Positions 5,672 to 24,414 of a stretch of DNA of 64,000 bases are shown piece after piece. The translations under genes and the position numbers were made by a program. Below the pieces are notes generated by a model, which ran no database searches, was not told the DNA's origin, and saw only the letters and a list, made by a program, of their open reading frames with translations. Origin of the DNA: Agapetus fuscipes (Eukaryota > Arthropoda > Insecta > Trichoptera > Glossosomatidae); NCBI GenBank assembly GCA_951799405.1, contig OX637351.1, positions 9,022,251-9,086,250 of the forward strand, given 5' to 3'. Every line of letters starts with the position of its first letter. Positions within the stretch are counted from its first letter, which is position 1.

Positions 5672-5768
5672 ACGACTGTCTCCCGCCAGTAAAAATCTTG
5701 GTTGGGGCGGTAAATTTAAATTGGCTACAAGGCGGTAAGTTTAAATTTGGATACGGTTTGAAAATATT
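5672..5768 (-). repeat. Left copy of a 97-bp inverted repeat (partner 21193-21289)
   Basis: This segment is the reverse complement of 21193-21289 with about five mismatches. It contains two internal near-repeats of TTTAAATT with ACCGCC blocks. The partner starts exactly at the end of the gypsy 3' LTR and lies in the 5' flank of ZNF-A. The pair flanks about 15 kb. Confidence 0.8.
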
Positions 5769-6484: not shown

Positions 6485-6881
6485 AAGAGCATAACAATTT
6501 GGGAAAGTGACATAAATAATTGACAAATTTATCCTAACCTCACTTTACACAAAAACATGACATGATCGGGGAGGTGGCGCTTTGTAGCTGCCTGGTGTGT
6601 TTGTTGCTTGCTGCACTTGTAAAATTAATTAAAATTACGAGTCTTTGGCAAATTTGTCTTTGTTGTGTCATAGTTTGCTGTTTTTGTGTTGCTTGAGCTT
6701 TTTGTGACTTTTGCAGTGCATTTCTTGTGTTATTATAACTGATTTGCGAACTTTAATTGTTTACTTTTAAAATGACTTATTATTGTTGCAAACTGTTATT
6801 TATGAGCGCAAACTTCTTCTTCTATGTGTTAAATCTTGCTAAAGAGCAGGAGCGCCAGCGTCAAGTGCAAATTACCTACCA

Positions 6882-9800
6882 ATGATCAGCTACAGCATTG
6901 AACAATTGTTAAGTTGGCGTGATTGGAACTCCACTGTTGATGTTGATGTTTTGACAGCAAATGGCCTGCATCAATCTGTCAAACTCTCGACTTTTAAACC
7001 AAGATTTCGGGGCAAGCGCTCCGGAAGAAAGGTCAAACTTTGTCAGTTAAATAGAGGTCGTCACTCAACGCAGAGTCACCGTAACTTGAAGATTGCAACA
7101 TGGAACTGCCGATCACTAACAAGGAGAGTTGATATTGTTGATGATGTGATCAGCGAGCACTGCATAGACATCCTGGCTCTTACTGAGACCTGGCACGAGG
7201 GTAGTGAAGACCTCAGCATTAAGCGCCTACGCAGCATGGGATACTCTGTCATAGAAAAGGCTCGAAAAATGCCACCCACTGAATCTGCACACATAACTAA
7301 CCATGGCGGAGTGGTCATAGTGGTAAAAAATGGTTTTAGGGTCTCTCAGATACAGAGTGTTCCTGAATTTTCTTCTTTTGAGTGCATTGCTGGCGTGTTT
7401 ACGTCTCGTGGATCATCAGTGTTGATTGTGAATGTCTACAGGCCTGGATCCAAGCCTCCCTGTACGTTATTCTTCGATGAATTCAAGAAGCTTTTGACAC
7501 GCCTGACAACCTATTCCATGCTAGTGTTTATTGTGGGAGATATGAACATCCGACTTGATAGAGCGGAGGATGGCCACAGCACCAAGTTTTTATGTATGTT
7601 GCATGATTTCAATTTTCATCAGCGGGTGAACCAGGTGACGCATGATGCAGGTGGTATCCTGGATGTTGTGATTTGTAATGCAGGTGATCCTCTGCTACAG
7701 TGTCAAGTCCTTGACATTGGCCACACGGATCATCGCCTAGTAACCGCAGTTACGGTATTCAACCCTCCAAAACCAATTTTTAAACGTATCACAAACAGAC
7801 CTTGGCGGAATTTTAATGTTGAGCAGTTTCAATGTGAGTTGTCTGGAAGCGACATCTGCAACAAAAACTTTATTGCCTCGGCAGACACGAACAAACTTAT
7901 CAAATCTTACAATAGCACCATGCTCTCGCTGATCAACAAATACGCTCCTCTCAAAACAACCATCAGGAGACAGAGAAGATCTGAGTGCTGGTTTGATGAG
8001 GAATGCAGATGTGGCAAAGCAGAGATGAGACGCCTTGAGAGGAGGTATCGACGGTGTCGCACAGAAACTGCACGTGCAACCTGGATGAATGCCCAGACCA
8101 TCTATTGGACTTTGATAAGGAGGAAAAGGTCGTCCTACTGGACCAGAAAAATGGAGACCGAAGCCAAGAACCCCAGGGCGCTGTGGAAGTCGATGAGCTT
8201 TGTCCTGGGAAAAAGTTCTACTCAGCATCCGGAGCTTCCTGCAAGTGAATTCTCTCGTCACTTTTCAGAGAAGTTACGAAGAATAAGAGAATCCAGTGCA
8301 GCGACCATTTTTAATCCCCCAGAGTCAAACAATTGTTGCAATGTTATTTTTTCATTTAAGCCTGTCTTGTTGAATGATGTTGTTAAGCTTGTACTCACAT
8401 GTCCAAACAAGCAATGTAAACTAGATCCAATTCCAACATGGCTGGTCAAAAGATGCTTAAGTGAGGTGGCACCTATTCTGTCAGCATTGGTCAACAAGTC
8501 TCTCACTACAGAGTGTATTTTTCCCACGGAACTTAAAAAATCAATTGTTACACCAATTCTCAAAAAATCAAGCCTTCCAGCTGATTCTGTGGAAAATTAT
8601 AGACCTGTGTCGTCCGTTCCTTTTATATCGAAAATTATTGAGAAGGCCGTTGTTTGGCAACTCACTCAGCACATGGAGCGAGGCGGATATCTGTCTAAGT
8701 TTCAGTCAGCATATAGAAAAGCTCATTCCACTGAGACTGCCTTACTTCGCATTGTGAATGATGTGATAGCTGCGGTTGGGGACGGTGCTCTTGCCATGGT
8801 GGCAGTACTTGACATGAGCGCTGCCTTCGACACTGTTGATCACAGTATACTCATCACTAAGCTTGATAGGTTGTACGGAGTCCGAGGAGGAGTATCTAAA
8901 TTGCTATCTTCATATCTGAAAGGCAGATGTCAGACTGTGGATGTTGATGGTGAGTCATCAGGTATGCCCATGGACTGTGGTGTGCCTCAGGGATCTGTGC
9001 TCGGGCCTTTACTTTTTACCCTGTACACAAATGATCTTGAGAGCACTGTACTGATGAACGGCACCAGCTACTATTCTTATGCTGATGATATTCTACTTTG
9101 TCGTTTCTGTCAGCCATCTATGACAGATGCCTGTAGTCTTGAGATGGTCCGGTGCATTGAAGTGGTGGCTGAGTGGATGGCAAGGTGTCGCCTTAGAATG
9201 AATCCAGACAAGACAGAATTCATCTGGATGTCGTCTCCTGGTAGGAAACACTTGCTTGGCTCTTCACCAATTAAAGTAATGGGCCTGGATGTATATCCAT
9301 CTAGCTCAATTAAGTTTCTTGGGGTCCATCTTGACAACACTCTCTCCATGAGTACGCAAATAAGCTCGACTGTGAGCTCCTGTTTTTTTCACCTGAGGCA
9401 GTTGAGATGGGTCAGAAACTGTTTGACATCCGAAGCTGCTAAGATTCTCATTGCGTCCTTTGTTGTGTCGAGACTGGATTATTGCAATGGTCTGTTCTGG
9501 GGTCTTCCAAGGTTTCAGCAGTCTAGACTGCAGTCCGTCTTTAATGCTGCAGCCAAATTACTTTTAGGAGGACGAAAAACTGACCATGTCTCTCCTCTGT
9601 TGCGGCGCCTTCATTGGCTGCGAGTCCCAGAGAGGATTGAGTACAAAATATGTGTTTCTGTTTTTAATGCCCTCAGAGGAGTTGCCCCATCGTACTTGTG
9701 TGAATTGTGCAGAGTCGACCAGATAGGTGGAAAACGATGCACTCTTCGTTCTGCACAGAGTGACGCCGTAAACAGGCTTCAACTGCCTCTTCGACGGAAC

Positions 9801-9947
9801 AGAACTGGTTTCGGAGACAGGGCTTTTAGTTCGGCTGGTCCATCCTGCTGGAATAGTCTACCTCTGGAGTTGAGAACAGAGACCAGTGTTGGCAGTTTCA
9901 GGAAGTTGCTTAAGACACATTTGTTTAACAGAAGCTTCAACACATAA
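6882..9947 (+). CDS. L2/CR1-type LINE ORF2: APE endonuclease and reverse transcriptase
   Basis: The 1021-codon ORF runs from ATG to TAA with no interruption. Residues 70-290 are an apurinic-like endonuclease: WNCRSL (N75 region), LTETW (E102), GDMNIRLD (D220, N222) and HTDHRLV (D283, H284). The RT follows, with LKKSIVTPILKK, ENYRPVSSVPFISKIIEK, VAVLDMSAAFDTVDH, CGVPQGSVLGPLLFTLY and the catalytic YADD at about 733-736. The C-terminal domain with RLDYCNGL, LHWLRVPERIEYK and SFRKLLKTHLF is the usual one of CR1/L2-type elements. The first 60 residues are basic. The protein would nick chromosomal DNA and prime cDNA synthesis there. All catalytic residues I can check are present, so it could be active if transcribed. 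Confidence 0.9.
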   Translation: MISYSIEQLLSWRDWNSTVDVDVLTANGLHQSVKLSTFKPRFRGKRSGRKVKLCQLNRGRHSTQSHRNLKIATWNCRSLTRRVDIVDDVISEHCIDILALTETWHEGSEDLSIKRLRSMGYSVIEKARKMPPTESAHITNHGGVVIVVKNGFRVSQIQSVPEFSSFECIAGVFTSRGSSVLIVNVYRPGSKPPCTLFFDEFKKLLTRLTTYSMLVFIVGDMNIRLDRAEDGHSTKFLCMLHDFNFHQRVNQVTHDAGGILDVVICNAGDPLLQCQVLDIGHTDHRLVTAVTVFNPPKPIFKRITNRPWRNFNVEQFQCELSGSDICNKNFIASADTNKLIKSYNSTMLSLINKYAPLKTTIRRQRRSECWFDEECRCGKAEMRRLERRYRRCRTETARATWMNAQTIYWTLIRRKRSSYWTRKMETEAKNPRALWKSMSFVLGKSSTQHPELPASEFSRHFSEKLRRIRESSAATIFNPPESNNCCNVIFSFKPVLLNDVVKLVLTCPNKQCKLDPIPTWLVKRCLSEVAPILSALVNKSLTTECIFPTELKKSIVTPILKKSSLPADSVENYRPVSSVPFISKIIEKAVVWQLTQHMERGGYLSKFQSAYRKAHSTETALLRIVNDVIAAVGDGALAMVAVLDMSAAFDTVDHSILITKLDRLYGVRGGVSKLLSSYLKGRCQTVDVDGESSGMPMDCGVPQGSVLGPLLFTLYTNDLESTVLMNGTSYYSYADDILLCRFCQPSMTDACSLEMVRCIEVVAEWMARCRLRMNPDKTEFIWMSSPGRKHLLGSSPIKVMGLDVYPSSSIKFLGVHLDNTLSMSTQISSTVSSCFFHLRQLRWVRNCLTSEAAKILIASFVVSRLDYCNGLFWGLPRFQQSRLQSVFNAAAKLLLGGRKTDHVSPLLRRLHWLRVPERIEYKICVSVFNALRGVAPSYLCELCRVDQIGGKRCTLRSAQSDAVNRLQLPLRRNRTGFGDRAFSSAGPSCWNSLPLELRTETSVGSFRKLLKTHLFNRSFNT

Positions 9948-10018: not shown

Positions 10019-10600
10019 TGAGTGTAATATTTGCGTATTGAATTATTTACTTCAATTGGTGATTTGTTGCAAAACATTTGCGAAGAGTGTAATGCTAAAT
10101 TTCAAATTATGTTATTGGTTGCTAAGGATGGCGGTGATACCCATACAAGCATGGATTTGTAAGGAACATACAAACATACAAACATGGATTTTTTAATAGA
10201 ACTCCATGCATACAAGACTGTTATTATTTTATTCGCCGAGAAAAAAGTTTCAAATTCAAAAACGTTCGAACCTTATTGTTCAAGGCTCATGTTTCGACCA
10301 GATTATATAAGTACTTTGCCATGAAACAAAAATAAAAATAATAAGGTCAGCACGTTAATTGACATTGACAATATTGTGTAATCACCCAGCCGGGTTGCTA
10401 GAAAAAAGGCATACAAATACCTTGTATTGCTTGCTAAGGCTGTCATTCCAATACAATACTGACGTTTGCTCGCCGAGAAAAAAGTTCCAAATTTAAATAT
10501 GTTTGGACTTCATTGGCTGATAGAATGTGTGAGGGATTAAAAAAGACTTCGCACATTTCAACTAGGGGGGGGAATCTATAATAATCTATAATCTAAGTTG
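10019..10600. other. Non-coding stretch with a short direct repeat
   Basis: No ORF or RNA gene is evident. A ~25-bp direct repeat (TCGCCGAGAAAAAAGTT...) occurs near 10234 and 10471. A fragment of the RTE tail (AATCTATAATCTAAGTTGC) sits at 10573-10600 directly against the gypsy gag. Confidence 0.5.
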
Positions 10601-10601
10601 C

Positions 10602-11694
10602 CAAGACAACGCCAAGACCCTGCAGGAGAACTTGACCGGGCTGGAGGAGAAGATGGTCAACGCCAAAACTCTGAGGGAAGACCTGAAGGCGGAGATGACC
10701 AGCAACATGACGGACCTGAAGGTGTAGATGTCTGAAAACGCTAAGACCCTAGAGGAGAAGGTGTCCCGAAACCTCACAACCCTGAAGGGAGAAATGGAGG
10801 AAAAGATGTCAACTCTGAATGAGGAAATGGAGACTCGCATGTCAAATCTAGAGGAACGTTTACGTGCAGAGCTGGCTGACAAGTGCCAGATGGAGTCCAC
10901 CAGAATATCCCCTAAAGACAAAGACAACCTTCACGTAGAGATCGACCAGGGATGCTCAAATCCAACCAGGGTCACAAGAGGGGATGATGACCTGTGGCTG
11001 GCAAAGCACAACCTCCCAACCTTCGACGGGAAGACGTCGTGGGAGGAATACCTGACCCTCTTCGAGACGGCTGCCATGATGGGAGACTGGAGCCAATAGA
11101 AGAAGGCTTCGGTTCTCAGCCTGTCGCTCCGAGGAGACGCTCTCAGGCTACTGCAGTCCATACCCCTGGACAACCGAGGCGACTATGGGCAGCTGAAGCA
11201 GCGCTTGGATATGCGCTATGGCCACAAGTGCCTGGAGCAGCTGTACAAGTTGCAGCTGAATACAAGGGTGCAGAAGCCCAACGAGAGCCTCCAGGAATTT
11301 GAGATGGACATCGGCCGCGTGGTAAGAGACGCTCACCCGACAGCCTCCGACGACATATGTGAGAGCTTGGCAGTGAACAAGTTCTTGAATGGATTGCGGG
11401 AATGGGAGACGCAGCAAGCCGTGAAACTAGCCCATCCCAAGGCGTTGAACGAGGCGCTAAGCCATGCGCTCGAGTTTGAGGCTATCAAACAGTCCGTCAG
11501 GGGCCACGCCAGGGTTCGTGCAGTCGAGGCAAAGGAGGTCAAACTACCTACAACCGAGGAGTTAATTGAAAAGGTCTTAGAACGTCTGAGACCTCGAAGA
11601 CGAGACCCACGCTGCTGGAACTGCGGACAGCTGGGCCATCTTAGCACCAAGTGTCTAAAGCCTCAGAAACCCAGGAAGCAAGCTGCGGAAAACT
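10602..11694 (+). pseudogene. Ty3/gypsy Gag with coiled coil and zinc knuckle
   Basis: A single frame is readable from 10602 to TAA 11694 apart from TAG stops at 10725-10727 and 11097-11099. The N-terminal third is a repeated heptad-rich coiled coil (LEEKVSRNL, LNEEMETRM, LEERLRAEL). The middle has the retrotransposon gag core (LPTFDGKTSWEEYLTLFE, FLNGLREWE). The C-terminus has one CCHC knuckle, CWNCGQLGHLSTKC. Such proteins assemble the particle and bind the RNA. The two in-frame stops make a functional Gag from this copy unlikely. Confidence 0.85.
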
Positions 11695-11850
11695 AAAAAG
11701 GGTAAATGGGAAGGGGCAACCGTTGACCCGCGCTGGAGAGGCCCTGAAATCTGCTGCTACTGTCGCAACCGTAAGAGGAAAAGCCAGCAGCATTTTTATC
11801 AACTTCCATTGTGCAACAGATGACAAACATGCCATGCGAAGGAAGATAAT
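11695..11850 (+). other. Gypsy gag-pol junction, protease region not recognisable
   Basis: Between the Gag stop and the RT start only about 155 bp remain. No DTG/DSG protease motif is visible in any frame, so the protease has probably been deleted. The element could not process a polyprotein. Confidence 0.5.
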
Positions 11851-12936
11851 TTGTCGACACAACTGGAAACTCTGGTCCACGACGCTTCCCATGGTCTAAC
11901 CGAGGAAAACAAACGTCGAGTGAGGAGTTTGATCTGCCGCTACCAGAACATTTTCGAGGACTCTAATGGCCGTCTGGGAAGAACCAAGGTAGTGCGACAT
12001 AGCATAGACACCGGAGAAGCAAGACCAATAAAACAGGCCCCAAGAAGACTACCCTTTGCAAAGCGAGAAGAAGCTGACAAGATCATCAAAGACATGAGCA
12101 AGGATGACATCATAGAACCATCAAGTAGCCCTTGGACATCCCCGGTGGTACTGGTGAAAAAGAAGGATGGTACCACGAGATTTTGTGTGGACTACAGACT
12201 GCTAAACGATGTTACGAAAAAGGATAGTTACCCTCTGCCAAGGATTGACGACACCTTAGACACATTGGCAGGATGCACCATTTTTTCTACATTGGACCTG
12301 AAAAGTGGCTACTGGCAAGTTGAATTAGATGCCAAAGATAAGGCGAAAACTGCATTCTCGACTGGATCTGGACTTTGGCAATTCACCGTGATGCCATTTG
12401 GCTTATGCAACGCCCCCGCCACGTTTGAAAGGCTGATGGAGAATGTGCTGCGAGGACTGTCATGGGAAACCTGCCTGGTATACTTGGATGACATAATCAT
12501 CTTAGGAAAGGACTTCAACCATCAACTAAGAAATCTGGAGCAAGTTTTCGGGCGACTACAGGATGCTGGACTGAAGCTCAACCCGAAGAAGTGCAACCTA
12601 TTCAAGAGACAAGTAAATTACCTGGGACACATAGTTTCTCAACGTGAAGTTAAGGTTGATCCTCCCAAAATCAAGGCAGTAAGAGATTGGCCCGTGTTAA
12701 AGGACAAACATGAAACTAGGAGTTTCCTGGGGCTGTGCACTTATTACAAGAGGTTCGTGCCAAGATTTGCGGACATTGCAAAACCGCCCACTAAGCTTAC
12801 GGAAGAAAACACTCGCTTCCACTGGAGTGATTCCTGCGCACAAGCATTTGAAGAGCGTAAGGGAAGATTAACAAGTGTCCTAATCTTGAGCTACCCACGA
12901 AAGGATGGAAAGTTTACATTACACATAAGACACGGA
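11851..12936 (+). pseudogene. Ty3/gypsy reverse transcriptase, truncated by a transposon insertion
   Basis: The frame is open through the whole RT. It shows IEPSSSPWTSPVVLVKKKDG, FCVDYRLLND, FSTLDLKSGYWQVEL, the substrate motif MPFGLCNAPATFERLM, catalytic YLDD and the thumb region with YLGHIVS and FLGLCTYYKRFV. RNase H has just begun (SYPRKDGKFTL) when a DNA transposon interrupts the frame at about 12937. The rest of RNase H resumes at about 18428 with a gap of some tens of codons. Downstream residues in this frame are transposon sequence. Confidence 0.85.
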
Positions 12937-13487
12937 TGTACACTAAGGTGGATCGAAATCGTTTTTTTGGGAATTTCGATTTTGCGTTTGGCCAAAAGCT
13001 GCTCTATATCAATACAAACAATAAATTGTACCACCATAAGGTCGAAATATTTGATCTTATACTGCCCCAAAGCCTCGAAAAGTTAATAAAAATCATAAAA
13101 ACTGCTATATACTTAACATTTTTTTTTGTTTATTAAGAAATAAATAATTGTAATAAAATGAAGCTCAAATTTAAGCACAAAGCATGATTTTCTATAACTG
13201 ATAGAAAAAAGACCCTTTTATGGCAAAAAAAATGAAAAAATGGCAATCAACAGAAGTCTAGAAAATAGTGATTTTAAGAGAATTGGTAATCTTTCTTTAA
13301 ATTGAAAAAAGGCATTATTTGTCGCGATTTCAGGTTTATTTTAATGAATTCATCTCTTCTGATAAGACCGCAAACAGCAGCTGAAGTTTTTGTTACAATT
13401 TTTACTAATCTTTCAGTGGCTAACGTGTAGAAAGGAAAATGGAAATGGCTTGAGATTAGTTCGTCAACAAGCGGTGGATTTTCTTAA

Positions 13488-14821
13488 CCTCTAAGGTAGT
13501 ATGGCCGTACCCGTACGGCGGTAAATGTCATTGCAAATCGAAGTATGGCCGTACCGGTACGGCTGTGGTCATACAGGCTTTATTGATAAGTAAACGTCAG
13601 AAATGGATTAACCAACGGCATCTAGCGGCTTTCCCCCATAATATTTTAAAAACTAAACGAAGTTAGCGGTATTATCGACTTTACAAAAGCGATTTCAAAG
13701 TATGTGTGACGTCACAGTCATCTTTCGTGGTGTTCGAAACAAGTTTGAACACGTGCGCGCTTGTCATCGCGTATACGGATATTTCTCCCGCGAAAATTGC
13801 ATTTTTTTACAGTTTTTCTTACGTAAATTGTTTGGTGATAACTTTTTGAAAGTTTTTGAACACGGTTTTATTTAAAAAAAACGTATTTTGTTTGGTGTTT
13901 TTGTGTTTTATTGACAATATTTTTATTCTTTGCATACCTTTATTTACGTACTATTTGATAGCGAGAGCCCGTTCGTAACTTTGTGTTGTGGAATTTTTGT
14001 GTTGTAATTTTTCTTTTATAAATTATCTGTCCCTCAATTTACGATCATGTCGCATAGGGTTAGTGAAAAGGACATCTTCGATGCTTTAGTTGAAAGCGAA
14101 GATGAAGAGTTATACGAAAATATTGACGATTTACCTATTGAGTCTGATAGCTCTTCTGAAGAATCTTTATCGTCAGAGGTAGAAGATGACCCTGAGCCGT
14201 CTACATCTAAACGTAGAAGACAAGAAGCGCGTAAACCGAATGCATCAGGAGGACGAAGGGTTGAGGATGTGCCACTACGACTAACGGAAAGGCACTTCCC
14301 CTTCCCTGTTCCCCAAACACAGGCACAAGGAAGCAGGACCCAAAGAAAGTGTCACGTGTGCAGTCATACAACTGTACGACCAAAGTGTCGAAAAGACACA
14401 AAATTCATGTGTGAAGTGTGCAACGTCGCTTTGTGTGTACATCCATGTTTCAAAGCCTACCACACTAAAAAACATTATTAGTCATCTTTTGTGTTTCATC
14501 TATGTATTTATATGTATTTTTAATTATTTTGTAAGTGTAAGTTTTTAATTACTTTTAGTGAAGTGAAGATTATTTTACTACTGTACTAATATTTTGACAC
14601 CGCAACCAATAGTTGACGACACCTGAAATAAACATACGATTTTTCAATAAAAACTTTGAAAAATGGTAAGTTTTAATTTTTTTTTCTTTGAAAAATGGTA
14701 AGTTTTATTATTTATTATTGTGTTGAAGTCGTTAAACATAATACTTTTTATTTTAACCCTTTATATAAAAACTCACTCCGTATAGGTATTTACATCATAC
14801 CAAAACTCACTACCTTAGAGG
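13488..14821 (+). mobile_element. Internally deleted piggyBac transposon with TTAA duplication
   Basis: Termini CCTCTAAGGTAGT (13488) and ACTACCTTAGAGG (14821) are inverted and flanked by TTAA at 13484-13487 and 14822-14825, as required for piggyBac. Inside the left end the block TATGGCCGTACC-GTACGGC occurs twice, a likely transposase-binding repeat. The total length of 1334 bp is about half of an autonomous element, and it carries one ORF (14047-14481). Confidence 0.9.
14047..14481 (+). CDS. piggyBac-derived protein: acidic N-terminus fused to C-terminal cysteine-rich domain
   Basis: The 144-codon ORF has an ATG start and an intact stop. Residues 1-55 are acidic (DIFDALVESEDEEL, SDSSSEESLSSE) and then give way to a basic KRRRQEARK stretch, as at the N-terminus of piggyBac transposases. 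Residues about 100-144 contain C-x2-C, C, C-x2-C and HPCF..YHTKKHY, the C-terminal cysteine-rich domain. The whole DDD catalytic core is missing, so it cannot transpose. The cysteine-rich domain of this family binds the terminal repeats, so a dominant-negative role is possible but is inference only. The open frame despite the deletion is notable. Confidence 0.8.
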   Translation: MSHRVSEKDIFDALVESEDEELYENIDDLPIESDSSSEESLSSEVEDDPEPSTSKRRRQEARKPNASGGRRVEDVPLRLTERHFPFPVPQTQAQGSRTQRKCHVCSHTTVRPKCRKDTKFMCEVCNVALCVHPCFKAYHTKKHY

Positions 14822-15230
14822 TTAACAACGTGATGTTTATTCACCGTTCATAAATTTTGTAACAGGCGGCTTGGCCACATTGTTTTCGTGCCAGTTTATA
14901 AGGTTTTTTTAATAATTGTTTGCATCAAAATCAAGTTTTGGCCGATCGTAGTTCGAATTCCCAAAATTATTTCCTGTCGCGTTTCAATATTCTTCACAAG
15001 GCTAGAACTCATAAAAAGGCAAAGCAAGTAAGATATTTTTATATGATTGAAATATCCATTTCTCTGTTTAACAGGATGTAGTATCTGCTTTAAATTATCT
15101 GTCAAATATCGCGACATTTAGATTGTCTTGTGTAAGTGTCTAGTACCATTAATGCAATGTGGTTAGTTTTGATGTAAGACCACATAAGAGCATCCACTTT
15201 CATTATATAATGGATAATATTAACAGCTTG

Positions 15231-16158
15231 TCAGATGGTTAAAAAAAAAAACATAAAGCCGTAGTATTCTGTGAGCCATCTTAAATGCACTAGTTTTCCA
15301 GTGTTTCTTTTTAATAAGCTTTGAGAACAATATCCAGACTTTATAGTTATTCTCCATTCAATATGTAGATCACATTGGATAGTTAGAATCGAGACTATTG
15401 GAAGCTCTTCACAACTTTTTAATACCTTTTCTATGGGTCCAGAGTAACTTCTTAGTCCAATTGTACAACCATCAATATATTCAAATAATTGGCGCGGCAG
15501 TTCGTTGGCATGGAGTTGACAAATACACCACTGCAGCAGTTTGACTAGATATTTTAAGTTTTTTGAAATGAATTTACCAATTCCATCTGTATTAACAATA
15601 GTTCTATCACGTCCGATTACAGCAAAAAGGATGACATTGGTATCTTTACTGATTAAAATATCCATAATTTTTCTTTTTATTATTGCTGCTTTTCCAGTGC
15701 TTAAAGAAATATGACCAATGTACTGTGACCTTGCGTCCTTAAGTAAACTAATACGCTCCTCTATAATTATATTTCTCTTATGATCCACTATATTACAGGT
15801 TTTATTTTTACGTCCATCAAAGTATAAACCCAAATCTTAGTAATCAGAATCAATGGTCACACCGCTGAACTTAGTTATTTGCTTTTCACGGGCTCTTTTA
15901 ATTTTATTTTGATCGAAAACTTTGGATGAATATTTGTCTGAAATAATACCAACGCTTTTTTGCCAAAACAAGAGCAGCTTCAGCCTTATAGGAAATGCCA
16001 AATTTATCCACAGGTTTTTCCAGTATGCCAAGGTCAATATTTTTTAATGAAAATGAATACGAAATTTGAGGTAGCGGTCTCTGAAGTGCTAGTTTTACTA
16101 TTACTGTTGAGACTGGTTCTTGAGAGACATCAGTTGATAGGTCAGACAGATTTGGCAA
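15231..16158 (-). pseudogene. Degenerate transposase-like protein of the 3.9-kb DNA transposon
   Basis: Three overlapping minus-strand pieces can be read: 15904-16158, 15837-16037 and 15231-15833. The longest contains LYFDGRKNKT, QYIGHISLSTGKA, the block LFAVIGRDRTIVNTDGIGKF and LQWCICQLHANELPRQLFEY. I recognise this pattern (DGT.VNTG...LQW..C.LHANELP) from repetitive predicted proteins in arthropods and cnidarians that are probably transposases, but I cannot name the superfamily. The G/CDGT-like aspartate has become RDRT. Frameshifts and missing ends make it non-functional. Confidence 0.6.
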
Positions 16159-16821
16159 TTAACTTGTAGCTTTTTCTTTGCATGGTTAATATTTCTGTTT
16201 CCGGTTCAGCTTTTTTTTAATTTCCCGCAGCAGTTTTCAAATCAACACTCCTTATGATAATTTATCTTTTGGTTCTTTGATCAACCGGAATATATTTCAG
16301 TTATCGGTACTTTAAGATGTTTGGCATAGTTAAATGAAGCCAATCTGTTGCATTAACACGCTGATATATTAAAAATACACTTCTTAGGATCTCTCGTAAA
16401 TTTGTATGTGCAAAAAATATGAGTAGCGTACAACTATAGTTACATCTCTGAGAGCACCGAATTGGTGACGCGCGTCTGCGCGGAGTAACAAAGTTAGGGG
16501 GTGCCTCCACCCATCCCTCTCAAATTACAAGATACCAAACACGTAATGATAACTATTTCATTCATTTTTAAGAAACAAAATTATATTTCGTTTGATTTTA
16601 TCTAATACTTGATTCTTAAACACAGGGGTAAAAATGAGTAGTTTTCTGTATTTTTGTAATTTTTCTGATGACTTGGGGCAGTATAATAAATTAATATTTT
16701 GATAAGATTTTTTTTATATCAGATACTCACCCCATAGAGCAACTGTTCTGCATAACGCAACTACGAAAAAATGATTTTTAATTTTTTCCATACATACAGC
16801 GATCCACCTTAATGTACACAG

Positions 16822-18311
16822 TTAACTACATATACCTAGAGATGACACCTCTAGATAAACGGAAAATGACTTAAAAGTTTCATGGAAGATATCTATTGAT
16901 ATTCCATTCAACATCCTCATTGCACAGTGGATTCCATCATGCAGCATCACATTTGTTTTTGTAGATGGGAGGTAAAAGAGAGGATGGCTGCGCGCTCGGG
17001 AGTAGTGGTTGGGAGTATAGAAATTTATTTTGCTTAAAAGCGTGGGATTATGGATGTGATCATGTAGGAGTAGGAAAAAATGTTTGAGGAGATGGATGGA
17101 CCGACGGGAAGATAAAGACTGAAAGGAGGTTGCACCCAGGAGATACGCTGTAGGGAAGTACATGTAATTATCAGCATCATATGGATTGTATTTTACAGAA
17201 TACAGTGATCTTAAGAATATTTTATGTACCCTTCTATCTGATTTATGTACGCCTGCTCATATGGACTCCAGATAATATCTACATATTCTAGTACTGACAA
17301 GACAAATGCTGTGTACAATGTACGTATAATATTACCATCATTAAAAGGTTTTGATGTACGCAAGATAAATCCAAGGAGTGTTAGAGCTCTTAAGGACAGA
17401 TTCTTGATATGGGAGTGAAATGTAAATCTAGAATCATAGATTACGCCCAAATCCTTAATCTCGTTCACTCTATCAAGGGATAAGTTTGATAGAGTATAAG
17501 GGAGAAAGGATAACGGCGTAGTAGAGCGGGTGAAGGAGATTACGTGGCATTTTGGTAAACTAAATTGGAGTTTGTTAGTTCCTGCCCAATCTGTAATCGC
17601 ATCAAGATCAACTTGCAGCAAGTGACTACAATCTGCTGTTTGAATTTGACGGAAAATTTTGAGGTCATCAGCAAACAGTAGGCAGTTGGAATGTTTTATG
17701 ACTTTTGTAATATCATCAAAGAAAATTGAGAAAAGAGTCGGTCCAAGGTTTGAACCTTGTGGTACTCCTGAATAAGTAGGAAATATGCGAGATTCGTTAC
17801 CTTAATAATCAACAAACTGGTTTCTAGCATGAAGATATGAGGCAAAGAAACATAGGACATTGTGAGAAGCTCCAAAGTTACTAAGTTTATGAATAAGTAA
17901 ATCATGATCCACTCTGTCGAAAGCTTTGGTAAGGTCTGTGTAAACAGCATCGTCTTGAATCCGATTATCCATTGAATGTGAAATATAATTATTATAAACT
18001 AGTAAATTTGTGATAGTAGATCTTTTCTCTCGAAAACCGTGTTGAGAGTCAGATAAATTTATTTGTGAGGTAATTGAGCGTTGTAGAATACATTCAAGGA
18101 GCTTAGCCGGTGCAGCTAAGATTGCAATTGGTCTATAATTTGAAATTTCCGATGACGATCGTTTTTTGTGAATTGGTACGATTCTTGTGACACCCCAAAG
18201 CTTTGGAAATGTAGAGCATAGAACGCTGAGATTAAATATAAACTTCAGTGGATTGCTTAAAAGAGTGGAGCATCCCTTAAGAATATAGGGAGGAAATCCG
18301 TCTGGTCCCAC
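16822..18311 (-). pseudogene. Jockey-type reverse transcriptase remnant
   Basis: Reading pieces at 17802-18311 (RT fingers and palm), 17211-17621 (thumb) and 16822-17163 (C-terminal conserved domain) lie in three frames. Each junction therefore contains an indel or stop, for instance the TAA near 17803 that ends the first piece at NQFVDY. The C-terminal piece resembles the one at 22536-22904 in the ZNF-A intron, so both come from the same LINE group. Not functional. Confidence 0.75.
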
Positions 18312-18427
18312 GCTGGTTTTTGGTAGCAGTTTGGAAAATGCAAAAGATATATCTTTGTCGTCAACATTTGTAAGTAATGTGGGGATAGGAGGTGTCTTTT
18401 TCCAAATACAAGATGGGCGTGAGACTG
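16822..18427 (-). mobile_element. Jockey-type LINE fragment
   Basis: The minus strand carries RT motifs MGPDGFPPYILKGC, NYRPIAILAAPAKLLE, HGFREKRSTITNL, VYTDLTKAFDRVDHDLL, then the connection and C-terminal regions (ITDWAGTNKLQFSLPKC, LSRRSIHLL). It is 5' truncated in the fingers region and its 3' end abuts the 3.9-kb transposon. The RT core with the YADD/FADD box is represented only by a frame-shifted piece near 17650-17760. Confidence 0.75.
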
Positions 18428-18929
18428 TTCTGGCTACTTCAGTAAAGTGTTTTCCAAGCCAGAACGAAATTATTGCGTGACCAGACGAGAGTTTCTAGCC
18501 GTGATAAAATCAGTGGAACACTTCCGCAAATACTTGTACGGGAGAAAATTCACACTACGGACTGATCATGCTGCACTGGCTTGGCTTCTGAAATTTAAAA
18601 ACCCAGAAGGGCAAGTGGCTAGATGGATTGAAAGGCTCGAGGAGTATGATTATGACTCCGAGCATAGACCCGGCACGCTTCATCGAAATGCGGACGCATT
18701 ATCAAGACGACCATGCGCAAGTGACTGCAAACATTGCAGCAGGATGGAGGACAAGGTAGCAATTGTCCAAAGAACGACCATTGAAGACGAGGACTGGCAA
18801 GATGAGAAATTGGCGCAAGACCAACTGAATGATCCGGACTTGAAGTTTGCGATGGAATGGGTGCGAGAAGGAGAAAGGCCAACCTGGGAAAAACTCGCCC
18901 CCTTATCACCAGCTGTCAAGACTTATTGA
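18428..18929 (+). pseudogene. Ty3/gypsy RNase H C-terminal part and start of integrase
   Basis: The gypsy frame resumes with GYFSK...FSKPERNYCVTRREFLA, then YGRKFTLRTDHAALAWLL (RNase H catalytic D in TDH) and HRPGTLHRNADALSRRP, the usual end of the RNase H. A spacer with CASDCKHCSRM follows. TGA at 18927-18929 interrupts the frame, which continues after it. Confidence 0.8.
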
Positions 18930-19882
18930 GCTCAATGGGGATCCACAGTGATTGAAGGAGGGCTACTGAAACTAAAGATCGAGAAGGAAGATGGCACACT
19001 TAGAAGAAAGCAAACCCTCGTTCCGAGGAGCCGGGTCCCGGAAATCCTTGGACTGCTTCATGGAGGAACTTCTGGAGGACATCTAGGCGTTAAGAAGACG
19101 CTGGAAAAAGGTCAAAGAGCGATTTTACTGGATTAACTGCGGCGAAGACGTCAAAGATTGGTGTCGAAAATGTGTAACCTGTGCATCGGCCAATGGACCA
19201 CAAAGGAAAAGGCGAGCACCGATGCGTCAGTACAGTGTTGGCAGCCCCTTTGAAAGAATTGTCATCGACATAACTGGCCCATTCCCTATAACTGAGAAGG
19301 GTAACAAGTACATCATGGTGGTGATGGATTACTTCAGCAAGTGGGTGGAAGCTTACGCAATCCCTAACCAAGAAGCCGTAACCGTGACTGAAATTCTAGT
19401 TACCGAATTTATCAGAAGGTACCCCTGGAATTACATTCTGATCAGGGAAGAAACTTTGAAGCTGCTATCTTCCAGCAAATATGCGAGCGGCTAGGGATCT
19501 ACAAGACTAGGACCACTGCGCTTCATCCGCAGTCTGATGGAATGGTGGAAAGGATGAACCATACCGTGGGGAGATACTTAGGCAAAGTAATGTCTAGCCA
19601 TCAGCAGGACTGGGACCAACATCTTCCTTTGTTCTTATTGGCTTACCGATCGGCTGTTCAGGAAGCGACGAAGAATACTCTCAGCAGCATACTGTTTGGG
19701 CGAGAAATGCGACTTCTCTGCGATCTCAAATTTGGCATCAAACCAGGCGAAGACCTAGCTGGAGAAGACTATGTGACAGACCTTCGCAGGAGGCTGGATG
19801 ACATCCATGATCAGGTCCGCATGAACATCGGGGAAGTCAGCGATCAAATGAAGGAGCGCTATGACACCAGAGCTGACAGCAT
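18930..19882 (+). pseudogene. Ty3/gypsy integrase (zinc-binding and catalytic domains), frame-shifted
   Basis: The HHCC domain is visible as LLHGG...GGHLGVKKTL, then after a frameshift near 19115 WCRKCVTC. The catalytic core shows the first Asp in IDITGPFP, the second in a shifted frame within SDQGRNF (around 19438-19458), and the Glu in SDGMVERMNHT. At least two frameshifts (near 19115 and 19420) and a stop (19491-19493) separate these pieces. The integrase is dead in this copy. Downstream, the frame joins the GPY/F region. Confidence 0.8.
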
Positions 19883-20701
19883 ATGGGGTACAAAGCTGGG
19901 GTACAAAGCTGGGTCTGCCTTGTTGACCTCAAGAGGCGCAAAGGATACTGTCCTAAACTTCAGCGTTCCTGGGACGGGCCGTACGAGATCTTGAAGCGCA
20001 TCAACGATGTGGTCTACCGCATAAAGAAGAGCCCAAACGGAAAACCAAGGATCGTGCACTATAATCGCCTCTCATCATACCTAGGCGATAATGATGACCA
20101 ACCAGCCCAAAAAGTACGACAGCGCGTCGCATCCGAAAGATCACCAGCCTTTGAGACGTTTTGGGAGAACGCGAAGGCGGGACAGAAGTTTCGCAATGGA
20201 GTGACCACGGAAGTCCAGAAGGATTTATTTGAGGTCACTCGGGATCACACTCTGGCATGCAGTGTACCGGAAGATCTGGATATGTCTAGAGGGATTGCAC
20301 GGGTCTTCCGATACGAGTTCGGAGAACCGCAACCCTCGAGCAGCCAGCAAGGAAGAGCTCTGAGGCTACCGAAGGGGCGTCAACAAACATACTGCCTGGT
20401 TGTCCTGGATTCCAGCAACCTGGAAGATGACTACAAGGCTTTGTGGGACGGTCTTGTTGAGCTGCGCGACTACATGCTGGAGGATCAGCAGGCGCGTCTG
20501 GCGATACCGAAGATGGGTGGCGGCCGTGCTAATCGAGACTGGAGGATAATCCGAAGTATGATTGAGGCAGTGTTCTCGGGAACCAGCATCAGTGTCGTGG
20601 TGTGCTGCGAGCAAGCGCAGCCGAGAGCCAGGGGGGAGAAATCCATGAACTGCCACTTCTTCCTGACCACAGGTTGTCAACGTGGATCAGCCTGCCCCTA
20701 A
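19883..20701 (+). CDS. Gypsy integrase C-terminus (GPY/F) fused to a macro-like domain and a broken CCCH finger
   Basis: The 272-codon frame starts inside the integrase. Residues 14-66 are the chromodomain-less GPY/F module (LKRRKGYCPKLQRSWDGPYE, HYNRLSSYLG). Residues about 104-242 read as a macro domain of the OARD1/Poa1p type: KDLF (113-116), DLDMSRGIARVFRYEFG (131-147), LPKGRQQTYCLVVLD (162-176), RLAIPKMGGG (205-214) and a closing helix-strand DWRIIRSMIEAVFSGTSISVVV (split over 219-240). Macro domains bind or hydrolyse ADP-ribose conjugates. After it, C257, C265 and C271 match C-x7-C-x5-C of a CCCH RNA-binding finger, but TAA at 20699-20701 falls between the third Cys and the expected His (CAC, 20705-20707). 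The fusion is uncommon for gypsy pol as far as I know. Domain naming is by eye. Confidence 0.7.
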   Translation: MGYKAGVQSWVCLVDLKRRKGYCPKLQRSWDGPYEILKRINDVVYRIKKSPNGKPRIVHYNRLSSYLGDNDDQPAQKVRQRVASERSPAFETFWENAKAGQKFRNGVTTEVQKDLFEVTRDHTLACSVPEDLDMSRGIARVFRYEFGEPQPSSSQQGRALRLPKGRQQTYCLVVLDSSNLEDDYKALWDGLVELRDYMLEDQQARLAIPKMGGGRANRDWRIIRSMIEAVFSGTSISVVVCCEQAQPRARGEKSMNCHFFLTTGCQRGSACP

Positions 20702-20757
20702 CTTCACAGAGTCAAGACTGTTCCGGGACGAAACAGGCTAGGTGGAGGGGAGGGTAA

Positions 20758-21193
20758 TGTAAATAGTAGATTAATATAGGTGTACATCGTAGGTAGTAAT
20801 AGTTATTATAGCATTATGACAAAAGTAGATTAATATAGGTGTACACCGTAGGTAGCAGTAATTATAGACCTAAGAAATCTAGAAATTAAATGATCCTTTT
20901 GTACTCTTGAACTTGGTAGAATATTCGAGAATGTACTGGCAAAATTAGTCACTGGAGAGTTCTGTCTGTGAAGTATATAAGGCGTAGAATTGAGTGCGCT
21001 AAGCCAGTGAGATAGTTGCCTTTGATTTGAAGAATGTAAGCGATAGTGAACTGTGAAAATAAATTTGTGTTACCAAAAGTGTTAAAAAGTAAATGTAGGT
21101 AAATTTGTAAAATTAATTAAGTGCAAATAAAGATCCTGAAAGAAGACCAGTATGTTTTAATTTAGAGACATTTTCGAACCCAAAAACACTACA
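20758..21193 (+). repeat. 3' LTR of the gypsy element
   Basis: The 436-bp LTR starts TGTAAATAG just after the purine tract GGTGGAGGGGAGGGTAA and ends ACACTACA. A TATATAA box lies at 20974-20980 and an AATAAA signal at 21058-21063, consistent with U3-R-U5. A ~33-bp motif (TAGATTAATATAGGTGTAC) occurs twice near 20766 and 20827. No 5' partner is present in the window. Confidence 0.75.
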
Positions 21194-21289
21194 ATATTTT
21201 CAAACCGTATCCAAAGTTAAATTTACCGCCTTGCAGCCAATTTAAATTTACCGCCCCAGCCAAGATTTTTACTGGCGGGAGACAGTCGT
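21193..21289 (+). repeat. Right copy of the 97-bp inverted repeat
   Basis: See 5672-5768, its reverse complement. This copy begins at the last base of the LTR and lies about 180 bp upstream of the ZNF-A start codon, so it may be part of the ZNF-A promoter region. Confidence 0.8.
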
Positions 21290-22920: not shown

Positions 22921-23051
22921 AGGTGCCTTAGAAATGTTTATGCACCGGTTCTATAATCAGGATTTAATAGGACTCATGAGGACAATCAATGTTGACTGAT
23001 TGTGGCTGCTTTGAAACTTTCTTGATTTTAAAATAAGGCACTTTAATATGT

Positions 23052-23170
23052 TGTATTTCCAGATGAGAGCTGTGGGTGTGTTACTTTATTCTACCATGTG
23101 GTGTATTTACAGATGAGAGCTGTGAGTGTGTTGGTGTGTTACTTTATTCTACCATGTGTTGTATTTCCAG
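23052..23170 (+). repeat. Tandem splice-acceptor units of ZNF-A
   Basis: A ~55-bp unit (TTGTATTTCCAG followed by ATGAGAGCTGTG) occurs three times, giving acceptors before 23063, 23113 and 23171. From 23063 the reading stays open into exon 2 and adds 36 codons. From 23113 it meets TGA within about 20 codons. ZNF-E has the same arrangement. Confidence 0.8.
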
Positions 23171-24414
23171 ATGAGAGCTGTGAGTGTGTTGGTGTGTTGG
23201 GGACAAGCAAGAGCCACCATCACAGACACACAACCTCGGAGAGCGGGCCAGCCACCTCAACAGAGCTACAGGGAGGCAACACACACAATGCATTGTCTGA
23301 TAGGGAAACACAGAAGGAAGAGAAGCTGTTTGCTTGTGATCAGTGTGATTATAAAGGAACTAAATCGCTGTATTTGAAAATACACAAATTAACAAACCCT
23401 GAACATAAGCACTTTTGTTGTGATGATTGTAATTTTAAGACATTGACATTGTCTTCCTTTAGGAGTCATAGACTGACTCACCCTGCAGATGTAAAGCCAC
23501 TTGTTGTGGAGAATAATCTATCCTTTAAGCTGTTTAATGTGCCAGAACCTTCATTTCCGAAAATGCCCTTCTGTTGCAATCAGTGTTATTATAAAACAAC
23601 AACATTGGGATCTTTGAAGCTTCACCTACACTCCATACACTCCAAACCATATGCCTGCAGTCTGTGTGAATATACAGCATTTTCAAATAAGTCTTTAATA
23701 TCTCATATTAAGTCACATCCAAAAATTAGACAATTAACATGTGATCAGTGTGATTTTAAAACAAAAACTTCTTCTTCTTTGCAAAGACACAAATTAAAAC
23801 ATACAGAACCATACCACTTTGTGTGTGATCATTGTGACTTTAAATCAAAATCATCATCAGGTTTGCGAGTACATAAATTTAGGCATTTAGGACATAAGCC
23901 ATATGCTTGTGATCAGTGTGATTATAAAACAACAACTTCTTCTTCTTTGAAAAATCACAAAGTAAGACATGCAGAACAATACCTCTTTGTGTGTGATCAT
24001 TGTGAATTTAAATCAAAATCATCATCAGGTTTGCGATCACATAAATTTAGGCATTTAGAACAGAAGCCATTTGCTTGTGATCAGTGTGACTATAAAACAA
24101 CAACTTCTTCGTCTTTGAAAATACACACAATTTCACACTCGGGTCACAAACCATTTGCTTGTGATCAGTGTAATTATAAATCAATTAGAATATCTTATAT
24201 GAAAAGGCACCAACTATTTCACTCAGGCCTGAAACTGTATGCGTGTGATCAATGCGATTATAAAGCAAATGAATCAAATTCTTTGAAACGCCACAATTTA
24301 CAGCACACCGGCCTCAAGCCGTCTGCATGCAGTCTGTGTGAATATAAAGCAACACAAAACTCTAATCTGAAAAGACACATAAGATGCCATCACCAGACTG
24401 TTGCTACCTCATGA
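23171..24414 (+). CDS. ZNF-A exon 2: twelve C2H2 zinc fingers
   Basis: The exon follows TTTCCAG and is in phase with exon 1 (G|AT completes Asp). After a hydrophilic start (DESCECVGVLG, HHHRHTTSESGPA) come about twelve C2H2 fingers, mostly CDQCDYKT-x-H-x3-H. The first has an atypical H-x6-H end (HKLTNPEH). Fingers 5-9 alternate two near-identical modules (TKTSSSL/SKSSSGL), a sign of internal duplication. The linkers are HS/T-G-x-KP-like. Such proteins bind DNA in the nucleus, but no target can be predicted. It ends HHQTVATS, and a TGA is followed by a UTR with ATTAAA at 24478-24483. Confidence 0.9.

Follow-up and report, generated by a model that had tools for sequence, protein, structure and literature searches.

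A predicted TARG1/OARD1-type macro domain and CCCH finger behind the integrase of Ty3/gypsy elements in Agapetus fuscipes and beetles

The window, i.e. the whole 64,000-nt stretch of contig OX637351.1 of the trichopteran Agapetus fuscipes that was analysed, contains the remains of a Ty3/gypsy element (Table 1). Gag, reverse transcriptase (RT), RNase H and integrase follow each other on one strand in Ty3/gypsy order. This series is disrupted by changes of frame and by a nested insertion. The gag remnant was recognized by tblastn with relatives from Aromia moschata (best E 6e-59, 39% identity over 10608-11624). Its region 11100-11696 matches PF03732 (1.1e-4, just below the cut-off of this model) and PF00098 (1.4e-4). 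No protease match was obtained in the 127 nt that separate the stop-to-stop ORFs of gag and RT. In the PDB, the RT is most similar to a reverse transcriptase/RNase H entry (8.7e-64) and to Ty3 (4e-63). The nested sequence comprises about 5.5 kb and carries minus-strand pieces of a LINE-type RT (PF00078 on 17211-17801 and 17802-18494) as well as an ORF at 14008-14481 with a transposase-type zinc finger (DDE_Tnp_1-like, PF13842). Integrase is distributed over two frames: 19087-19494 matches PF17921 (2.2e-7) and PF00665 (5.6e-8), and 19392-19994 matches PF00665 (0.002).

Table 1. Parts of the Ty3/gypsy copy and of its terminal open frame. Positions refer to the window.
Feature	Position	Strand	Evidence and remarks
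Gag remnant with CCHC zinc knuckle, frame disrupted	10578-11696	+	tblastn, PF03732, PF00098
Ty3/gypsy-type reverse transcriptase, right limit approximate	11824-12930	+	PF00078 2.5e-37
Nested foreign sequence splitting pol, limits approximate, by eye	12931-18412		ORFs, PF00078, PF13842
RNase H part of pol	18423-18929	+	PF17917 1.3e-22
Integrase HHCC and catalytic core, two overlapping frames (frame-disrupted)	19087-19994	+	PF17921, PF00665
274-aa open frame: integrase C-terminus, predicted macro domain, cut CCCH finger	19877-20701	+	stop at 20699-20701
Integrase C-terminal module (GPY/F region)	19955-20077	+	PF22938 E 3.6e-13, residues 34-65
Predicted TARG1/OARD1-type macro domain without catalytic Lys/Asp	20198-20605 (residues 108-243)	+	phmmer E 7.2e-12
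CCCH zinc finger, three Cys, stop before His	20651-20698	+	frame translation; complete CCCH in relatives
Polypurine-rich tract before LTR, by eye	20739-20757	+	sequence reading
Putative 3' LTR, 436 bp, TG...CA, by eye	20758-21193	+	TATA-like 20974, AATAAA 21058 and 21126

An earlier note on this DNA had proposed to look for LTRs at both sides of the element. One LTR-like end lies within the window, and a second LTR copy or a 5' LTR was not found there by blastn. Only 56 nt separate the stop codon of the last frame from the LTR-like end and, therefore, there is no room for an envelope gene at this place. By its domains and their order, the element is identified as a broken Ty3/gypsy copy. It is dead, because integrase is interrupted by frame changes, pol by the nested insertion and the finger by a stop codon.

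Some further features of the window were recorded. The 3' LTR-like end contains a 45-bp direct repeat (20762-20806 and 20821-20865, 89% identical). A 97-bp repeat is present in opposite orientation at 21193-21289 and 5672-5768 (96% identical), and one of its copies starts where the LTR-like end stops. A long and open LINE-type ORF of 1034 aa with endonuclease and RT is located at 6843-9947 (+), and a 455-aa open frame at 23047-24414 encodes about ten C2H2 zinc fingers.

The 274-aa frame starts inside the integrase C-terminal region and proceeds via a variable linker into the macro domain, which is followed by three finger cysteines and the stop codon. Behind the integrase module, it contains KDLF, DMSRGIARVFRYEFG, LPKG and AIPKMGGG. 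The earlier note had assigned all these motifs to one frame and had read them as a Ty3/gypsy-type integrase end, fused in frame to an OARD1-type macro domain and to a CCCH finger that is cut off by a stop ahead of its His; all of this was confirmed. Human OARD1/TARG1 (PDB 2eee) is the best PDB match in phmmer and covers frame residues 110-242. Chance controls were performed with E values scaled to 177,635 sequences. Among 281 window ORFs of at least 60 aa, one, the 274-aa frame, matched the OARD1 segment at E<1. At E<10, OARD1 was matched neither by any of 500 shuffled versions of the frame nor by any of 175 reversed proteins. With all three controls clean, a chance motif match was rejected.

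A family profile built from 19 sequences, the window copy among them, finds TARG1 at 1.4e-46, the runner-up macro protein (PDB 5m31) only at 2.5e-6 and the fingers of CPSF4 at about 0.05. The runner-up is listed as 'Appr-1-p processing domain protein' and is presumably a DarG-type macrodomain. The macro profile search that had been suggested as a check gave a divided answer: The family profile leads to TARG1, but the window copy was missed by the macro model of Pfam, even at E up to 10. Applied to the family alignment, this model matches 16 of 19 members (E up to 1), with 3.8e-5 as the best value. By whole-domain sequence, with a match above those of other macro families, the domain in the window frame is classified as a macrodomain of the TARG1/OARD1 type.

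In the window copy, the finger reads C259-x7-C267-x5-C273, followed by one Pro and the stop, so that the pattern C-x7-C-x5-C-x3-H is not completed. On its own, this stretch is not significant in Pfam (E 2.9 and 6.4), and it was rejected as stand-alone evidence. It is believable because relatives have a complete CCCH at the same place. Behind the macro domain, 128 of 151 near-full copies among the matches listed carry the complete pattern. The 23 copies with an incomplete CCCH include the window copy, cut gene models and the proteins P0005 and P0006. These two contain the macro domain and reach the usual tail of the family without a CCCH. Therefore, the finger is not essential.

Relatives were collected in three protein searches that yielded 16, 62 and 214 matches, the best 120 of the 214 being listed; 174 distinct proteins are among the matches listed. 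Their number refers to database entries and gene models rather than to genomic loci. Of these proteins and the window frame (175 in total), the seed was matched by 168; residues were counted in the 151 that are near-full over the macro domain. OARD1 was matched by 166 of the 175 proteins. The remaining nine among the matches listed are P0069, P0070 and P0072, which are truncated or garbled models, and P0011-P0016, which contain integrase sequence and no macro match. P0012-P0014 stop no more than about 60-75 residues beyond the integrase module, and the Periplaneta protein P0015 matches over the integrase end only and does not match OARD1. The order GPY/F-macro-CCCH in one frame, whose occurrence elsewhere was to be checked, recurs in relatives. 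Since the macro domain is joined to integrase in these proteins, too, the alternative named in the earlier note, a chance fusion to a host exon, was rejected.

Among the matches listed, all named macro carriers are beetles. They belong to five species: the longhorn beetles Aromia moschata, Molorchus minor and Exocentrus adspersus, Harmonia axyridis (Coccinellidae), and Brassicogethes aeneus (Nitidulidae). The remaining entries originate from transcriptome or metagenome sources. Clustering at 90% identity resulted in 19 groups among the matches listed. The largest one comprises 122 of the 151 copies, all named A. moschata; among these, pairwise identities of the macro domain have a median of 0.978 and a 5th percentile of 0.912. 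These near-identical copies suggest a recent amplification in A. moschata, with the reservation that the query of the 214-match search was an Aromia protein, which raises the number and makes Aromia over-represented, and that gene models were counted. A pattern scan of viral contigs with the window frame yielded 5 pattern matches, and scans with A4 yielded 68 in viral contigs and 59 in genome contigs; none of them was confirmed. No part of A3 was sufficiently conserved for such a scan.

In each of three Aromia gene models (P0084, P0094, P0113), the order is SAP-gag-protease-integrase-macro-CCCH; integrase is represented there by its C-terminus, and the macro and CCCH matches are below the Pfam cut-offs (E 0.001-0.007). 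A protease (PF13650/PF13975) was detected at E<1e-4 in three of four scanned Aromia proteins, and the fourth (P0152) matches PF13650 at 0.004. No RT match was found in the scanned Aromia gene models, and a complete Pol was seen in no single protein. The models are probably mis-spliced, because RT is absent from them. As a separate observation, a SAP domain (PF02037, E about 1e-8) is located N-terminally in the gag part of P0084, P0094, P0113 and P0152. Judged by title, no report on a SAP domain with a gypsy gag was found in the open-licence literature.

In TARG1, Lys84 and Asp125 are responsible for binding and hydrolysis, as stated in an excerpt of PMC5087735. The available part of PMC7050489 describes the same residue pair but prints Glu125. 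The OARD1 chain has Asp at position 125, in agreement with the excerpt of PMC5087735. The equivalents were placed by alignment to this chain, i.e. to the PDB match of the window frame. Among the 151 near-full macro copies in the matches listed, 147 retain the Lys84 equivalent, 146 the Asp125 equivalent and 145 both. The pair is also kept in 17 of the 19 representatives of the 90% identity clusters (matches listed), the exceptions being the cluster formed by the window copy and P0001, and P0061. Because the pair is kept in 145 of these copies, removal of ADP-ribose is plausible in most relatives, and its conservation suggests that most lineages have an enzyme and not just a binding domain.

The window copy has Leu177 at the position of Lys84 and Ala218 at that of Asp125. 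This means, the catalytic pair is absent. P0001 has Pro and Ala, and P0061 has Arg and Gly at these positions. P0150 contains Gly instead of the Asp125 equivalent, and in P0161 and P0055 one of these positions is a gap. In addition, the window copy (Cys128) and P0001 carry Cys in place of a His that is kept in the other 149 of the 151 copies among the matches listed. For the window copy, the removal of ADP-ribose that had been considered in the earlier note finds no support: Leu177, Ala218 and Cys128 replace the usual residues, the element is broken upstream, and the finger is cut by a stop. According to an excerpt of PMC5087735, SCO6735, a macrodomain that groups with ALC1/TARG1, has Gln and Ala at both positions and uses a different mechanism. 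Hence, to the extent that this excerpt covers SCO6735, loss of both residues alone does not prove inactivity.

Conservation differs along the frame. Across 12 representatives, the mean pairwise identity is 0.72 in the integrase end, 0.52 in the macro domain vs. 0.33 and 0.25 in the linkers, and 0.40 in the CCCH stretch, which two of the 12 do not have. The window macro domain has an identity of 0.40 to its relatives (all-pair mean 0.52), whereas the window integrase end is at 0.71 vs. 0.72. The window lineage seems to change faster in the macro domain, because its identity is low there and not in the integrase end. The CCCH stretch (0.29 vs. 0.40) and the linkers (0.28 vs. 0.33 and 0.18 vs. 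0.25) of the window copy are somewhat less alike, too. In the macro tree, the window copy is situated on a long branch with 2.33 changes per column. P0001, its 92% relative, agrees in 197 of 215 residues, and nine of the 18 differences are in the macro domain. P0001 is open over the shared 215 residues and has a complete CCCH. Judged from these data, the macro domain of the window lineage may serve as a reader or may be decaying.

The cluster representatives share 31-47% identity with human OARD1 and the window cluster shares 29%. The range of 31-47% points to an animal TARG1 gene as the source. A Mantel test showed no correlation between the distances of integrase and those of the macro domain (r 0.12, a value reached in 1388 of 5000 permutations; r -0.02 without the window copy). 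The macro tree is poorly resolved and places OARD1 inside at weak support (82/75). The distance correlation and the macro tree do not separate one capture from several.

The following explanation is preferred and is given an even chance: An ADP-ribosylhydrolase of the TARG1 type was captured and is produced within Pol, and would be active in most lineages and a binder or a relic in the window copy. A Ty3/gypsy lineage would have taken up the macro domain, in most cases together with a CCCH finger, and would express both at the C-terminus of Pol, immediately after integrase. Synthesized as the terminal part of Pol, the macro domain would arise together with integrase and might be carried in the particle. 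In most members, it is probably a working ADP-ribosylhydrolase that could strip ADP-ribose added by host PARP enzymes. Possible substrates would be the element's own proteins, its RNA or cDNA ends, or nearby chromatin. The CCCH finger might hold the hydrolase on RNA. In the window lineage, where the catalytic residues are gone, the domain could be at most an ADP-ribose binder, or it could use another mechanism. A more detailed scenario can be put forward only tentatively: In an insect Ty3/gypsy lineage with recent activity in one beetle or more, the captured TARG1 hydrolase, as part of an integrase-macro-CCCH protein, would shield the element from PARP-dependent ADP-ribosylation by the host, and in side lineages (window, P0061) it would have turned into a non-catalytic reader that steers integration.

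In chromoviruses, a chromodomain behind the same GPY/F module steers integration. By the same token, the macro domain might serve in targeting by binding to ADP-ribose marks, either on chromatin or at DNA breaks. Its placement behind a GPY/F-type integrase end fits such a role, as does the window lineage, where, to judge by P0001, the macro frame was retained open after catalytic loss. However, binding alone is not expected to need both Lys84 and Asp125, which nearly all near-full copies among the matches listed keep, and a targeting function for the family is considered unlikely.

Macro domain and finger could also act jointly on the RNA of the element, the finger in packaging or translation and the macro domain by de-ADP-ribosylating RNA ends. 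This is quite doubtful. The complete CCCH behind the macro domain in most near-full copies among the matches listed agrees with it, and, at E up to 1, 13 of the 19 members of the family alignment match zf-CCCH_3 and 12 match zf-CCCH. Furthermore, the accessible part of PMC7050489 names TARG1 among the enzymes that reverse ADP-ribosylation of 3' and 5' phosphate ends. Yet, P0005 and P0006 lack the finger, and the substrate overlaps with that of the preferred explanation. That the domain is host sequence which was caught and is merely carried along without function is very improbable: It would suit the broken window copy with its lost catalytic residues and long branch, but the catalytic pair is kept in all but two of the cluster representatives (matches listed), and the macro part is more conserved than the adjoining linkers.

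In animals, ADP-ribosylation is known to be contested between the host and RNA viruses with macro domains. If the preferred explanation, a captured hydrolase, applies, a retrotransposon whose integrase is followed by a macro domain of the enzyme type would be a hint that ADP-ribosylation by the host bears on retrotransposons, too. For tests, the family would offer a natural series of domains from beetles and other sources, some of which retain the catalytic residues and some of which do not. Judged by titles and the beginnings of abstracts, no report of a Ty3/gypsy element with the order integrase-macro-CCCH was found in the open-licence literature, which misses most subscription papers. Within this scope, the result agrees with the earlier note, which knew of no described gypsy lineage with this layout. 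This has to be qualified, as, according to an excerpt of PMC4977317, macro ORFs in endogenous retroviruses of fish have been published. On the strength of this excerpt, the capture of a macro domain by a reverse-transcribing element is no novelty in kind, since the fish elements precede.

Several known systems can be compared. The presumed DarG-type macrodomain (PDB 5m31) is the next macro protein by profile, but its match is far weaker than that of TARG1. TARG1/OARD1/C6orf130, one of the ALC1-like macrodomain hydrolases, is the best PDB match over the whole domain, and most relatives share its Lys84 and Asp125. In contrast to the solved TARG1 chains of about 150 aa, the domain here forms the tail of Pol and is followed by a CCCH, and the window copy is without the catalytic pair. 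Ty3 and gypsy-type LTR retrotransposons share the RT, which is near Ty3 in the PDB, and the order gag-RT-RNase H-integrase. They differ in that neither macro domain nor CCCH is present in integrase relatives like P0012-P0014, which terminate shortly behind integrase. In chromoviruses, too, the GPY/F end of integrase is immediately followed by an additional domain. There it is a chromodomain, whereas here it is a macro domain with a CCCH. Macro-domain or CNPase ORFs have been described in epsilon-like endogenous retroviruses of fish (Basta et al., 2009, cited in an excerpt of PMC4977317). These retroviruses are alike in being reverse-transcribing elements with a captured macro domain. As far as this excerpt describes them, they are vertebrate elements in which the macro domain belongs to additional ORFs, whereas the elements described here are Ty3/gypsy elements of insects in which it is in frame with integrase and a CCCH finger.
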